Source of the DNA: Stenotrophomonas oahuensis
GTDB lineage: Bacteria; Pseudomonadota; Gammaproteobacteria; Xanthomonadales; Xanthomonadaceae
Direction: 5' to 3'
Assembly: GCF_031834595.1 (NCBI RefSeq)
Contig: NZ_CP115541.1
Span: 3,094,501-3,158,500 of the forward strand
Length of the DNA: 64,000 nt
Shown: positions 42,823-61,658 of the stretch, piece after piece
Layout: each line of letters begins with the position of its first letter
How positions within the stretch are numbered: the first letter of the stretch is position 1
Program-made: the position numbers and the translations under genes
The notes under the pieces: model-generated
Seen by the model: the letters and a program-made list of their open reading frames with translations, nothing else
Databases searched by the model: none
What the model was told of the DNA's origin: nothing

Positions 42823-43188
42823 ATGAGCGAAACCATCATTTACGGGCTGAAGAACTGCGACACCTGCAAGAAGGCCACCAAGTGGCTGGACCGCTTCGGT
42901 GTGGCGTATTCCTTTGTGGATTACCGCGACAACAAGCCGTCGCCGGAGACGCTGCTGGAATGGGCAGCGCAGCTGGGCGGGCTGGGCGCGATGGTCAACA
43001 AGTCGTCTACCACCTGGCGGCAGCTGCCGGACAACCGCAAGGCGGCCGCGTCTGACGCGGAGTGGAAGCTGCTGCTGCGCGAGTACCCGCAGCTGATCAA
43101 GCGGCCGGTGGTGGTCACCCCTGACGGCAAGATAAGCCAGGGTTTCAGCGACAACGGTTTCAAGCAGCGTTTCGGGGTAGGGGCATGA
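42823..43188 (+). CDS. ArsC/Spx-family reductase, YffB type
   Basis: 121 residues. Thioredoxin-like fold with CDTC near the N-terminus ([16 protein letters not shown]), [11 protein letters not shown], and the conserved [15 protein letters not shown] where ArsC has its anion-binding Arg. YffB/YfgD-like proteins are glutathione-dependent reductases or have unknown roles; arsenate reduction is not proven. Immediately upstream of dapE with ATGA overlap, a conserved pairing in proteobacteria. Confidence 0.88.
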
Positions 43189-44312
43189 ACGATGTCGTCG
43201 CGCTGACCTGCGATCTGATCGCGCGGCCGTCCGTTACGCCGGACGATGCCGGCTGCCAGGCGCTGCTGGCCGATCGTCTGCAGGCGGTGGGTTTCCACTG
43301 CGAGCACCTGCGCCTGGGCGAGGTCGACAACCTGTGGGCGACCCACGGTAGCGGCGCGCCGGTGCTGGTGCTGCTGGGTCACACCGACGTGGTGCCGCCG
43401 GGCCCGCGCGAGGCCTGGGCCAGCGATCCGTTCAAGCCCGAGGTACGCGAGGGTGTGCTGTACGGCCGCGGCGCAGCAGACATGAAGGGCAGTGTGGCGG
43501 CGTTCGTGGTGGCGGCCGAGCAGTTCGTGGCGGCGCATCCGGATCATCCGGGCACACTGGCAGTGCTGTTGACCAGTGACGAGGAAGGCGACGCCATTGA
43601 CGGCGTACGCCGGGTGGCGGATCTGTTCCGCGAACGCGGGCAAGGCATCGACTGGTGCATCACCGGTGAGCCCTCCTCGACGGCGGTGCTGGGCGACCTG
43701 TTGCGGGTGGGGCGTCGCGGCAGTCTGTCGGGCACGTTGACGGTGAAGGGCGTGCAGGGGCACGTGGCGTATCCCCACAAGGCGCGCAATCCGATTCATC
43801 TGGCCGCCCCGGCGCTGGCAGCGCTGACCGCACGGCACTGGGACGACGGTTTCGAGAGCTTCCCGCCGACCAGCCTGCAGGTCTCCAACATCCATGCAGG
43901 CACGGGCGCGAACAACGTCATTCCAGGCGAACTGCAGGTGCTGTTCAACCTGCGCTACAACCCGCACTGGAACGCACCAAAGCTGGAAGCGGCCATCACC
44001 GCGATGCTGGACGCGCACGCACTGGACTACACGCTGAAATGGCACCGCAGCGGCGAGCCGTTCTACACCCCGGAAGGCACGTTGCGCAGCGTGGCCCGGC
44101 AGGTGCTGGGCGAATTCGCCGGCGCGGCCCCGGAAGAAAGCACCGGCGGCGGCACCTCCGACGCCCGCTTCATCGCCCCGCTGGGCGCGCAGTGCATCGA
44201 AGTGGGCCCGGTCAACGCCTCCATCCACCAGGTCAACGAAAACGTCTCCGTCGCCGACCTCGAAGCCCTGCCAGCCCTCTACCAGCGCCTGATCGAGCGC
44301 CTGCTGGCCTGA
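43185..44312 (+). CDS. dapE: Succinyl-diaminopimelate desuccinylase
   Basis: 375 residues, M20 metallopeptidase fold. It hydrolyses N-succinyl-LL-DAP to LL-DAP. Zinc ligands lie in [28 protein letters not shown] and [12 protein letters not shown]. The dimerisation domain starts near [20 protein letters not shown]. The C-terminus has [14 protein letters not shown] and [14 protein letters not shown]. Works two steps after DapD, which lies 2 kb upstream on the same strand. Confidence 0.98.
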
Positions 44313-44322
44313 CGCGATCTCC

Positions 44323-44859
44323 GTAGAGCCGGGCTTGCCCGGCTGCTGTTGGATTCAGGCGAACAGCTGATGGTCACGTGAATCCGTGCTTGGGCGCACC
44401 GGGGTGGGTTTGCGGGACACGCCGTAAACCCGTCCATGGGGGCTCGTAGAAAACATCCATGTTTTCTACGGTCCCTCAAACCCACCCCGGCACGCCCCAG
44501 ACAGTTGGCTGGTGGCCACGGGAGATCGCAAGCCATTCGCGCTGCCCCGGTGGAATCGGAAATGCCCCGGTGGGATCGGTCGACAGACGATCGCCGTGAA
44601 ATCCCCAACAATCGGTAACGCATGACCCCAGATCAACGTTGCCGTTGATCTGGGGCTTCCCATGGCCACCGACCCCCTGTCGATGGCGGGTCGGGATGGG
44701 CTGGAGGGGGCATGAGCCGCATGGATGCGGCGACTGAGCTTACAAGGACGTACTTGCAGCGTCCCCCGGAACGCCCGTCCCGACCTGCCAAGCCAGGGAT
44801 TCCGTGAACAGAGGGCTGTTCGCCTGAATCCCACAGCAGCCGGGCAAGCCCGGCTCTAC
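44323..44859. repeat. Composite repeat cluster 5 (SMAG - hairpin A - unit C inverted - hairpin B - SMAG)
   Basis: It fills the gap from dapE to the asnB leader. SMAG at 44323. Hairpin A has arms 44392-44418 / 44471-44497 and inner palindrome 44446-44469. Inverted unit C lies at 44567-44624, preceded by a partial tandem copy of its GCCCCGGTGG(A/G)ATCGG end. Hairpin B has arms 44685-44701 / 44773-44789 and inner 44716-44731. Inverted SMAG ends 44859. Confidence 0.87.
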
Positions 44860-44907
44860 GGGAGCTGCGCTACCAAGGAAGACCGGCGGCCACGGAATCC
44901 AGGTAAG

Positions 44908-44951
44908 TTGCGACAGCAACAGTTGCACGCCCGAAAATTTCCGGGTACGTT
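44908..44951 (+). promoter_or_regulatory. Candidate promoter of the asnB leader transcript
   Basis: TTGCAC (44923-44928) and TACGTT (44946-44951) are 17 nt apart. An alternative is TTGCGA (44908-44913) with GAAAAT (44933-44938). The first would start the RNA at or next to the leader ATG, making it leaderless. Neither is consensus in the -10 box. Confidence 0.4.
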
Positions 44952-44957
44952 CGATCC

Positions 44958-45053
44958 ATGGCCTCGTCCCTGACCACCGTCGTCAATAACAACCGCAATA
45001 ATCTGCGCGCGAATAATCGTGCGCGGCCGATGCGGGACTGCGACCAGGGCTAG
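44958..45053 (+). CDS. Asn-codon-rich leader peptide of asnB
   Basis: 31 codons from ATG to TAG. Residues 10-20 read NNNRNNLRANN: seven asparagine codons in eleven, against a usual frequency near three percent. Both AAT and AAC are used. The peptide ends just before a terminator and 143 bp before asparagine synthetase, the exact layout of his, trp or leu leader peptides. No clear Shine-Dalgarno precedes the ATG, so it may be translated leaderless. It would act in cis as a sensor of charged tRNA-Asn; the peptide itself need have no function. Confidence 0.85.
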   Translation: MASSLTTVVNNNRNNLRANNRARPMRDCDQG

Positions 45054-45094
45054 AACCAGAAACACGCCCGGATACCAGAAAACCCGCATCGGTC
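45025..45094 (+). promoter_or_regulatory. Antiterminator pairing in the asnB leader
   Basis: GGCCGATGCGGG at 45025-45036 (codons 23-26 of the leader peptide) is complementary over 12 positions, one of them G-U, to CCCGCATCGGTC at 45083-45094. That segment contains eight bases of the terminator's 5' arm and its whole loop. The two structures exclude each other. A ribosome stalled at the Asn codons (44985-45017) would favour the antiterminator; one that reaches the stop at 45053 would favour the terminator. Confidence 0.8.
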
Positions 45095-45110
45095 GATGCG
45101 GGTTTTTTTA
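45081..45110 (+). terminator. Attenuator (intrinsic terminator) of asnB
   Basis: AACCCGCATC, loop GGTC, GATGCGGGTT and a T-run to 45109. A 10-bp stem lying 27 nt beyond the leader-peptide stop and 86 nt before asnB. Confidence 0.9.
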
Positions 45111-45195
45111 TGGTCCGGGTTTTTCACATCCGGGCCTGGGTGGCCGGTCGAATGCCTGCAACACGTGTATTCCCCCATCATCAGGAGCTGTTCCC

Positions 45196-46887
45196 ATGTG
45201 TTCGATCTTCGGAATGTTCGGCCTGCAGGCCGGCGATGATCTTCCCGCCCTGCGCCGTCGCGCGCTGGATCTTTCGCAACGCCAGCGCCACCGCGGGCCC
45301 GACTGGAGCGGCGTGTACGTCGACACCGGTGCCGTGCTGGTGCACGAGCGTCTGGCTATCGTCGACCCGGCCGGTGGCTCGCAGCCGCTGCTGTCCGAGG
45401 ATGGCGGTCTTGCCTTGGCCGTCAACGGCGAGATCTACAACCACCGCGAACTCAAGGCCGAACTCGCCCAGCCGTATGCATTCCAGACTGGTTCTGACTG
45501 CGAGGTCATCAACGCGCTGTATCGCGAAGACGAACCCGCATCGTTCCTCAACCGCCTCAACGGCATTTTCGCCTTCGCCCTGTGGGACCGCGACCAGCAG
45601 CGCGTGCTGATCGCACGTGATCCGATCGGCGTGGTGCCGCTGTACTGGGGCCATGACCAGGACGGTCGCCTGGTGGTGGCCTCTGAACTGAAATCGCTGG
45701 TCGACATCTGCGCCGATGCGGCGCAGTTCCCGCCCGGCCACTGGTATGACAGCGCCACCGACACGCTCACCCGCTACTACGAACGTCCCTGGCGCGACTA
45801 TGACGCCGTGGAAGGTGTCGAAGCCGACCGCGTCGCCTTGCGTGAGGCCTTTGAGCGCGCCGTGCACCGCCAGCTGATGACCGACGTGCCCTACGGCGTG
45901 TTGCTGTCCGGTGGCCTGGATTCTTCGCTGGTGGCCGCTGTGGCCGCACGCTATGCGCGCCATCGCATCGAGGACGGCGACAAGAGCGAAGCCTGGTGGC
46001 CGCGGCTGCACTCGTTCGCGATCGGCCTGAAAGGCTCGCCCGATCTCGCCGCCGCCGCCATTGCCGCCGAGGCGTTGGGCACGGTGCATCACGGGTTCGA
46101 GTACACCTTCGAGGAAGGCCTGGATGCGCTGCCCGAAGTCATCCGCCACGTGGAAACCTACGACGTCACCACCATCCGCGCTTCCACGCCGATGTTCCTG
46201 CTGGCGCGGCGGATCAAGGCCATGGGCGTGAAGATGGTGCTGTCCGGCGAAGGCAGCGACGAGATCTTCGGTGGTTATCTGTACTTCCACAAAGCGCCCA
46301 ACGCGCGTGAATTCCATGAGGAACTGGTGCGCAAGCTGGATGCGCTGAACAACTACGATTGCCTGCGCGCCAACAAGTCGATGATGGCCTGGGGTGTGGA
46401 GCCGCGGGTGCCGTTCCTGGACCGTGAGTTCCTTGATGTGGCCATGCGCATCGACGCGCAGCACAAGATGGTCGGGAAGGGCGGTGACGGCGCTCGCCGG
46501 ATCGAGAAAGCGGTACTGCGCGAAGCGTTCGAGGGCTACCTGCCTGAGTCGATCCTGTGGCGGCAGAAAGAGCAGTTCAGTGACGGGGTGGGGTACGGCT
46601 GGATCGACGGTCTGAAGGCACACGCCGAAGCCCAGGTCAGCGACCGGGTCATGGCCGCGGCCGACAAGCGCTTCGTGCACAACCCGCCGCAGACCAAAGA
46701 GGCGTACTACTACCGCCACCTGTTCGAGCAGTTCTTCCCGACCCAGGCCGCGGCGGAAACCGTGCCCGGCGGCAAGTCCATCGCCTGCTCGTCGCCGGCG
46801 GCGATTGCCTGGGATGCGAGCTTTGCCGCCATGGCCGACCCGTCCGGCCGTGCGGTCGCCGGGGTGCACGAACAGGCCCTGGTGTAG
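45196..46887 (+). CDS. asnB: Asparagine synthetase B, glutamine-hydrolysing
   Basis: 563 residues. Met is followed by Cys2, the glutaminase nucleophile (MCSIFGMFGLQ), so ATG 45196 with CAGGAG upstream is the real start even though the frame is open further up. The class II amidotransferase domain has RHRGPDWSGVY and LAVNGEIYNHRELK. The synthetase domain has the PP-loop LLSGGLDSSLVAAV and VLSGEGSDEIFGGYLYFHKA. It makes Asn from Asp, Gln and ATP in the cytosol. Expression should be governed by the attenuator directly upstream. Confidence 0.98.
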   Translation: MCSIFGMFGLQAGDDLPALRRRALDLSQRQRHRGPDWSGVYVDTGAVLVHERLAIVDPAGGSQPLLSEDGGLALAVNGEIYNHRELKAELAQPYAFQTGSDCEVINALYREDEPASFLNRLNGIFAFALWDRDQQRVLIARDPIGVVPLYWGHDQDGRLVVASELKSLVDICADAAQFPPGHWYDSATDTLTRYYERPWRDYDAVEGVEADRVALREAFERAVHRQLMTDVPYGVLLSGGLDSSLVAAVAARYARHRIEDGDKSEAWWPRLHSFAIGLKGSPDLAAAAIAAEALGTVHHGFEYTFEEGLDALPEVIRHVETYDVTTIRASTPMFLLARRIKAMGVKMVLSGEGSDEIFGGYLYFHKAPNAREFHEELVRKLDALNNYDCLRANKSMMAWGVEPRVPFLDREFLDVAMRIDAQHKMVGKGGDGARRIEKAVLREAFEGYLPESILWRQKEQFSDGVGYGWIDGLKAHAEAQVSDRVMAAADKRFVHNPPQTKEAYYYRHLFEQFFPTQAAAETVPGGKSIACSSPAAIAWDASFAAMADPSGRAVAGVHEQALV

Positions 46888-60452: not shown

Positions 60453-60539
60453 TGGTGCCCAGGAGAGGACTCGAACCTCCACGAAGTTGCCCCCGCTAGC
60501 ACCTGAAGCTAGTGCGTCTACCAATTCCGCCACCTGGGC
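60453..60539 (-). tRNA. tRNA-Leu (CAG)
   Basis: 87 nt including encoded CCA. Acceptor GCCCAGG/CCTGGGC, D-arm GTGGCGGAATTGGTAGACGC, anticodon loop TTCAGGT (anticodon CAG), long variable arm GGGGGCAACTTCGT, and T-arm with GGTTCGAGTCC. Reads CTG, by far the most used Leu codon here. Confidence 0.96.
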
Positions 60540-60671: not shown

Positions 60672-60758
60672 TGGTGCCCAGGAGAGGACTCGAACCTCCA
60701 CGAAGTTGCCCCCGCTAGCACCTGAAGCTAGTGCGTCTACCAATTCCGCCACCTGGGC
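60672..60758 (-). tRNA. tRNA-Leu (CAG), second copy
   Basis: Identical in sequence to the tRNA at 60453-60539 and displaced by exactly 219 nt. The downstream flank, including the terminator and TTTACTGAGTCA, is also copied, so this is a recent tandem duplication. Confidence 0.96.

Positions 60759-61573: not shown

Positions 61574-61658
<85 letters not shown>

Follow-up and report, generated by a model that had tools for sequence, protein, structure and literature searches.

The region preceding asnB in the analysed DNA of Stenotrophomonas oahuensis (the window, a stretch of 64,000 nucleotides) very probably carries a ribosome-mediated transcription attenuator specific for asparagine, as judged from sequence comparison and predicted folds. 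An attenuator of this kind had been proposed in an earlier note, and the proposal was supported by a leader ORF whose Asn run and hairpins are conserved, by an intrinsic terminator, by the complementarity of two RNA segments (2 and 3) with coordinated changes and by the promoter position. The features of the locus are given below.

43185-44312, dapE, upstream neighbour of the leader
44907-44920, plus strand, inverted repeat GTTGC-N4-GCAAC immediately before the -35 element, a candidate regulator site
44923-44951, plus strand, promoter recognised by comparison of loci: TTGCAC (44923-44928), 17-nt spacer, TACGTT (44946-44951)
44958-45053, plus strand, leader peptide ORF of 31 codons with seven Asn, from ATG 44958 to TAG 45051-45053, conserved in relatives
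44985-45017, plus strand, run of Asn codons (residues 10-20), the proposed sensor, unique in the window
44993-45026, plus strand, segment 1 (CCGCA, 44993-44997) and hairpin P1 (45003-45012/45017-45026), both predicted folds
45024-45036, plus strand, segment 2, the 5' arm of the antiterminator, inside the ORF
45077-45109, plus strand, intrinsic terminator, hairpin 45077-45108 with a U-run at 45103-45109
45083-45095, plus strand, segment 3, common to the antiterminator (with segment 2) and the terminator
45183-45187, plus strand, AGGAG, the likely ribosome-binding site of asnB by its sequence
45196-46887, plus strand, asnB, glutamine-hydrolysing asparagine synthetase, the gene proposed to be regulated

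In the proposed mechanism, the A of the leader ATG would be the first transcribed nucleotide, and the 5' end itself would be the loading site for ribosomes. With ample Asn-tRNA, the ribosome would reach the stop codon and sit over or beside segment 2, leaving segment 3 free to pair with segment 4 into the terminator, and a transcript of about 150 nt would be released. When Asn-tRNA is short, the ribosome would stall in the Asn run and segment 2 would stay free; it would pair with segment 3 as the latter emerges, and with such timing RNA polymerase would pass before the terminator forms and asnB would be expressed. If no ribosome is present, the upstream half of the leader probably sequesters segment 2, and termination is the likely default.

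The leader peptide, MASSLTTVVNNNRNNLRANNRARPMRDCDQG, has Asn at residues 10, 11, 12, 14, 15, 19 and 20, which confirms both the coordinates and the codon count of the 31-codon ORF described earlier with seven Asn codons within residues 10-20. A density of seven Asn in 11 codons was found in one of the 1,590 frames of the window (stop-to-stop, at least 12 codons), all others having at most 4, and the maximum in simulated windows of 64 kb (n = 40, first-order Markov) was likewise 4. The product of the downstream gene matched NCBIfam asparagine synthase B with 867.9 bits against a cut-off of 499, its best solved relative was 1ct9 (asparagine synthetase B), and it is 98% identical to AsnB of Stenotrophomonas sp. 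278. Its start at 45196 lies 86 nt after 45109, the same distance past the terminator as the earlier note had given. A leader-peptide attenuator is expected to have a short upstream ORF with clustered codons for the product, and the seven Asn among 31 codons before asnB, conserved in relatives, correspond to this. About 640 nt without an obvious gene separate dapE from the leader ORF. Two palindromic intergenic repeats (44446-44469 and 44631-44650) lie in this interval and resemble repeat elements known from Stenotrophomonas. On the minus strand of the window there are also three tRNA genes of 82-84 nt (60456-60539, 60675-60758 and 61577-61658), two of them with equal scores, and their length suggests a long variable arm.

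The charging of tRNA-Asn in the window genome, which is 4.68 Mb in size, was analysed by profile searches. Asparaginyl-tRNA synthetase (asnS) was found with 623.6 bits (cut-off 342.6), and gatB had no match in this genome, the control search for gatB being positive in 12 of 14 named genomes. With AsnRS present and gatB not found, tRNA-Asn is probably charged directly from free asparagine, and a codon sensor therefore makes sense; the charging of the sensed tRNA would depend on the free amino acid, as expected for an attenuator. No Asn leader was seen upstream of the asnS locus of the same genome.

The conservation of the leader was analysed in 222 asnB loci, which gave 184 distinct upstream stretches. 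Of 513 named genome stretches the best 80 supplied loci, as did 30 of 87 same-genus genomes with asnB and an order-wide set, in which 307 of 398 genomes have asnB, of 30 loci plus 60 stretches and 30 genomes; the sample was thus chosen, not random, and is weighted to close relatives. An automatic test, which asked for four or more Asn within 12 codons of an ORF and for a downstream hairpin with a T-rich tail, was passed by 158 of the 184 stretches; 25 fell below the Asn threshold, and L080 was left out of the automatic count owing to a run of N inside its leader. The hairpin was found in all 158 with the looser criterion of at least 4 T in 8 nt, the first criterion of 5 T in 8 nt having missed L175, L189, L193, L204 and L208 and having chosen poor hairpins in a few loci such as L144, L179, L194 and L195. 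Inspection by eye added eight leaders, namely five with a terminator and a density of 3 Asn per 12 codons (L157, L159, L162, L164 and L206), two with 4 Asn that sit further upstream behind an insert (L174 and L199) and L080, in which the leader end is visible. The leader was consequently present in 166 of the 169 distinct stretches with an asnB identity of about 70% or more. The alignment of asnB upstream regions proposed in the earlier note thus gave a conserved Asn run and conserved hairpins.

The leader was absent from three of these 169 stretches (L043, L044 and L202). The contigs of L043 and L044 are labelled Tardiphaga and Rhodopseudomonas (alphaproteobacteria) and have asnB genes of 93% and 91% identity without the leader, directly behind an open frame read by eye as acyl-CoA dehydrogenase; these genes were apparently transferred without the attenuator. 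A contig labelled Bacillus subtilis strain SK7B5 (L036) has a Stenotrophomonas-type asnB (96%) together with the leader and is probably a mislabelled or contaminated assembly. In L174 and L199, about 280-350 nt of partly repeat-like sequence separate the terminator from asnB, and this insert may uncouple the switch from the gene. No leader was seen in any of the 15 loci of the order with divergent asnB of 60-67% identity (L210-L224), and no convincing one in 24 loci from beyond the order, where asnB identity is about 58-63% (L233-L256, from 24 of 26 such genomes). Two candidates among the latter were rejected: LNNNN in an A/T-rich stretch of L254, with no terminator seen between it and asnB, and a low-GC ORF of L234 with 5 Asn in 12 codons, judged to be chance.

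Over the 158 loci, the distance from the stop codon to the hairpin was 19-36 nt (median 25) and that from the hairpin to asnB was 26 to 167 nt. These distances bear on the alternative that the upstream ORF acts on the translation of asnB, by re-initiation or coupling, rather than on transcription termination. Such an arrangement is suggested by the ORF preceding asnB, for which a separate ribosome-binding site is likely, yet it is hardly credible here, because a hairpin with a T-rich stretch lies between the ORF and asnB in all 158 scored loci (five of them failing the stricter T-run criterion) and the variable hairpin-asnB distance is unsuited to coupling.

A sequence-only model of the leader was searched in 25 same-genus genomes, that of the window included, and in 16 genomes of other families. 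Each of the 25 genomes gave one strong match (54 to 115 bits), always at asnB. The best of the weaker same-genus matches listed had 32 bits (the same hairpin on the opposite strand), followed by matches of at most 25 bits; some of those listed span the terminator and some most of the model (G064, positions 15-154, E 4.5e-5). In the window genome a second, partial match to model positions 72-154 was seen at C1:791896-791975 (E 4.9e-4), and partial matches resembling it occur in several other same-genus genomes. In the 16 genomes of other families the best E value was 2e-4, the model missing families in which leaders are visible as ORFs and hence being uninformative about them. This distribution was considered together with the peptide sequences, in which the tails vary by clade (RARPMRDCDQG / RARPMRVCD, ASLPRAGD, TRIDGWAGV, NRWRARA), the Asn run persists, and tail, segment 3 and terminator change together between clades. 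Were the leader to encode a small peptide with a function of its own or an RNA acting in trans, with the terminator being simply the 3' end of that gene and no attenuator present, the product would be an RNA of about 150 nt ending in a hairpin and carrying a leaderless ORF, as described for rnTrpL/peTrpL of Sinorhizobium meliloti in the available part of PMC7298713, and the good conservation of NNRARPMR in one clade would find an explanation. This explanation is very unlikely: NNRARPMR overlaps the antiterminator arm, other clades have unrelated tails with the Asn content kept, and the sole strong match in all 25 same-genus genomes is at asnB. A role as peptide or trans-acting RNA need not, in any case, exclude attenuation.

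Codon usage in the Asn run was compared with that of the genes. The 155 leaders contain 509 AAU and 520 AAC codons; in the window, asnB uses AAC 10 times and AAU never, and the totals for four genes including asnB are 31 AAC and 2 AAU. Positions could be compared in 110 anchored leaders, the other 45 of the 155 having no anchor. A conserved CGC was found in 100 of the 110, the codon just before it being AAC in 86 and AAU in 6, and the codons of the P1 loop were AAU in 83 and 95. Both Asn codons occurred at all eight positions where at least 40% of the anchored leaders have Asn. By these counts the Asn codons also carry RNA constraints, which is expected if segment 1 (CCGCA) lies in the Asn run. 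It could be supposed that the terminator and antiterminator are controlled by the general translation rate or by a leader-binding protein, the Asn codons merely keeping the RNA A-rich and unstructured. Asn codons are A-rich, the frequency of AAU in leaders against its rarity in the four window genes indicates selection on the RNA as well, and unstructured RNA would help leaderless loading. A-richness alone would, however, equally permit Lys or Gln, and over the 155 leaders, which stand before an asparagine synthetase, Asn is the commonest residue with 21%, against 0.2% for Lys and 1.6% for Gln; the occurrence of both Asn codons at each of the eight positions likewise speaks for the amino acid. 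Control of this general kind is therefore improbable, and the asparagine-specific attenuator is the preferred reading.

The RNA elements of the window leader were then compared with those of an attenuator, in which an intrinsic terminator lies between the leader ORF and the first gene and an exclusive antiterminator, sharing the 5' arm of the terminator, begins at or after the regulatory codons. The terminator was found at 45077-45109, its stem consisting of 45077-45090 paired with 45095-45108 (14 bp counting A-U pairs) around the loop GGUC (45091-45094). The 10-bp terminator placed earlier at 45081-45109 is hence present, with a stem longer than stated. It is not included in the three terminator-like matches of a simple scan. 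The pairing of 45025-45036, inside the ORF, with 45083-45094, also proposed in the earlier note, was confirmed; it comprises 12 pairs, one of them G-U, and is lengthened by 45024-45095 to an antiterminator of 13 bp. Pairing of CCGCA with UGCGG and the hairpin P1 were predicted in the upstream half, and segment 1 with P1 is proposed as the partner of segment 2 when no ribosome is present. The regions 44940-45120 and 44980-45112 each folded better than 200 of 200 dinucleotide shuffles (z -3.9 and -4.9, respectively). A fold beginning at 45024 gave the antiterminator with -35.3 kcal/mol, and one beginning at 45037, by which segment 2 is removed, gave the terminator with -28.3 kcal/mol.

Compensatory changes in the two alternative stems, which the earlier note had suggested looking for, were found for the terminator; for the antiterminator they were seen between clades, its covariation within an alignment of 22 leaders not being significant. 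In this alignment 98.6% of the terminator cells were paired, two-sided changes occurred in 3 of 10 counted pairs (as many in 4 of 500 shuffles) and in 7 cells (0 of 500 shuffles), and the covariation score was reached by 0 of 500 shuffles. For the antiterminator in the same 22 leaders 88.4% were paired (15 of 500 shuffles) with one pair showing two-sided changes, and the covariation score was not significant, being reached by 52 of 500 shuffles. Segment 1 and P1 showed 86.7% pairing with one two-sided pair and covariation not above the shuffles (320 of 500). Between clades, one column of the antiterminator was U-A in 58 loci, C-G in 42, U-G in 6 and unpaired in 51, taking segments 2 and 3 of 157 of the 158 loci (L060 dropped, and a less favourable pairing register used in some GWAGV-clade rows); it is the most variable column on the core side. 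In one clade, A in segment 2 was accompanied by U in segment 3 in 7 of 7 loci and G by C in 12 of 12 (Fisher p 2e-5, the loci not being independent). These 19 loci are those of the 222 that fit a pattern for the clade with the ending GAY-TAG or CGT-TAG, L162 with a similar tail being excluded. Four of the seven A-U loci keep G in segment 4, by which the terminator is left with a G-U pair and the antiterminator is Watson-Crick, and the sequence changes in these four loci are hard to explain by the terminator alone.

The strength of the segment 2:3 duplex was also compared with shuffles and with other loci. Its energy was -15.4 kcal/mol compared with -9.8 kcal/mol for shuffles, being better at p<=0.05 in 126 of the 158 loci and no better in 32, and, set against the average for 30 arms taken from other loci, the own segment 2 arm of a locus was better in 129 cases and not in 29. 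With G-U pairs included, all four nucleotides of the terminator loop were complementary to the 5' flank of segment 2 in 56 of 93 loci, 62 of the 155 leaders being left out as having no loop pattern; 45 of these 56 matches are GGCC with GGCC. Against shuffles the second position stood out (0 of 1,000), the third was weak (p 0.036) and the first and fourth were not distinct. In leaders with GNRA-like loops this complementarity is lost.

The switch was further analysed with folding models. Switching at equilibrium was defined as a terminator probability below 0.3 with a ribosome stalled at one of the first three Asn codons and above 0.7 with the ribosome at the stop codon. Only 63 of the 155 leaders switched in this manner, and 91 of 155 continued to favour the terminator when the ribosome was stalled at the first Asn. 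A purely thermodynamic switch for all leaders was thus discarded. Without a ribosome the terminator was favoured (P>0.7) in 132 leaders and not formed (P<0.3) in 18 of the 155. By these counts the switch must be kinetic. As a stand-in for kinetics, chosen after the equilibrium result was known, the pairing before segment 4 exists was calculated: segment 3 paired with the distal part of the ORF (P>0.5) in 153 of 155 leaders, compared with 19 of 155 when this part was shuffled, and the pairing probability exceeded all 20 shuffles in 89 of 155. In 152 of 154 leaders (one of the 155 being lost) segment 2 had an upstream pairing partner with P>0.5, and in 48 of the 154 it paired with the Asn run. 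The position of the stop codon is a weak point of the attenuator reading for the window leader. Xanthomonas-type leaders have 8 nt from segment 2 to the stop codon and the clade examples, taken by eye, have 6-8 nt; with the footprint size generally known for the ribosome, a terminating ribosome would cover segment 2 in these examples because the stop is so near. The window leader has 14 nt in this place, so the cover of segment 2 by its terminating ribosome would be limited to the end of the segment.

The promoter position was derived by comparing the loci, the simple consensus scan having reported no sigma-70 site. In 155 of the 158 loci an in-frame start codon (ATG in 151, GTG in 4) follows TTGC at a distance of 28-43 nt, and in 152 of 158 TTGC is 35-37 nt upstream of the leader start codon; the start codon was picked among in-frame candidates by the TTGC spacing, which favours this result where several candidates exist. 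L177, L178 and L185 had no TTGC in the searched range and showed TTGT 36 nt before an in-frame ATG instead. A -10-like hexamer (TACGGT, TAGCGT, CAGGAT, TCTAGT and others) was seen at -12 to -7 or -13 to -8, and position -1 was C in 97% of the 155 leaders. As background, 24 of the 1,757 ATGs of the window have TTGC within -38 to -30. The distances of TTGC and the hexamer are the canonical spacings of -35 and -10 elements from +1, so the first nucleotide of the ATG, or one about a base away, would be the transcription start, and the leader mRNA is probably leaderless, starting at the leader ATG 44958. The earlier note had regarded a start past 45110 as contrary to attenuation; the conserved promoter-like element places it upstream, at the ATG. 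The GTTGC-N4-GCAAC repeat was perfect in 51, near-perfect in 51 and absent in 53 of the 155 leaders, and it may be the operator of a putative asnB regulator.

Classical leader-peptide attenuators are known from the trp, his, leu, ilv, thr and pheA operons of E. coli and its relatives. The asnB leader is similar to them in having a short ORF rich in codons for the product, an intrinsic terminator, an antiterminator with a shared arm and a biosynthetic gene downstream. It differs in that asparagine would be sensed, the ORF contains segment 2 a short distance ahead of its stop codon, and the mRNA is apparently leaderless. T-box riboswitches specific for tRNA-Asn sense the uncharged tRNA before asparagine genes; there the RNA binds the tRNA directly without translation, whereas the sensor proposed for the asnB leader is the translated Asn codons. 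No T-box was among the 13 Rfam matches at E<=5 in the leader region and no Rfam family reached its gathering score there, the best sub-threshold matches to leader families being Thr_leader (21.9 bits on the minus strand and 21.5 on the plus strand, cut-off 55), Leu_leader (20.7, cut-off 50) and rnk_leader (17.3, cut-off 50). E. coli asnA is controlled by AsnC, which is also an asparagine-responsive control of a synthetase, but by a DNA-binding protein at the promoter and of a different synthetase.

No described asparagine attenuator was found in full-text literature searches of partial coverage, the likeliest comparative attenuation surveys lying outside it. Asparagine is unmentioned in the available parts of PMC2965389, PMC4833913 and PMC1262725; that of PMC3771888 names it once, where a table lists AsnB2 of a Xanthomonas strain, with no regulation by asparagine, and none of the searched terms occurs in the available part of PMC3744752. 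The mechanism is of a known kind, and the asparagine specificity, and its combination with a leaderless start in this order, appear to be new. If the reading is true, asparagine is added to the amino acids sensed by translation-coupled attenuation, and one element, present in 166 of the 169 stretches with close asnB, explains asnB control in the Xanthomonas/Stenotrophomonas group. The leaders form a natural comparative set in which the RNA arms of a ribosome switch drift and the codon sensor, the Asn run, is kept, and the leaderless start, as deduced here, would give a clean system for 70S loading on a bare 5' end coupled to RNA polymerase.

A broader proposal, which we regard as doubtful, is that this is the first asparagine-specific ribosome-mediated attenuator, leaderless and inherited from an ancestor shared by three or more families in the order (f1, f2 and f12, with f1 comprising by our reading Stenotrophomonas, Xanthomonas, Pseudoxanthomonas and Luteimonas), and that the RNA of about 150 nt and the Asn-rich peptide, made when asparagine is plentiful, may act in trans. 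The nearest parallel is the trpL leader RNA (rnTrpL) of Sinorhizobium meliloti, which according to the available part of PMC7298713 begins at the ATG of the leader ORF and for which, with the peptide peTrpL, trans roles are reported. The asnB leader RNA would resemble it in beginning at the ATG and in the attenuation, here predicted, of a biosynthetic gene. In that source the S. meliloti system concerns tryptophan, trpE(G) and an alphaproteobacterium, and trans roles are reported for it only; a possible trans action of the asnB leader RNA or peptide would parallel these reports on rnTrpL and peTrpL.
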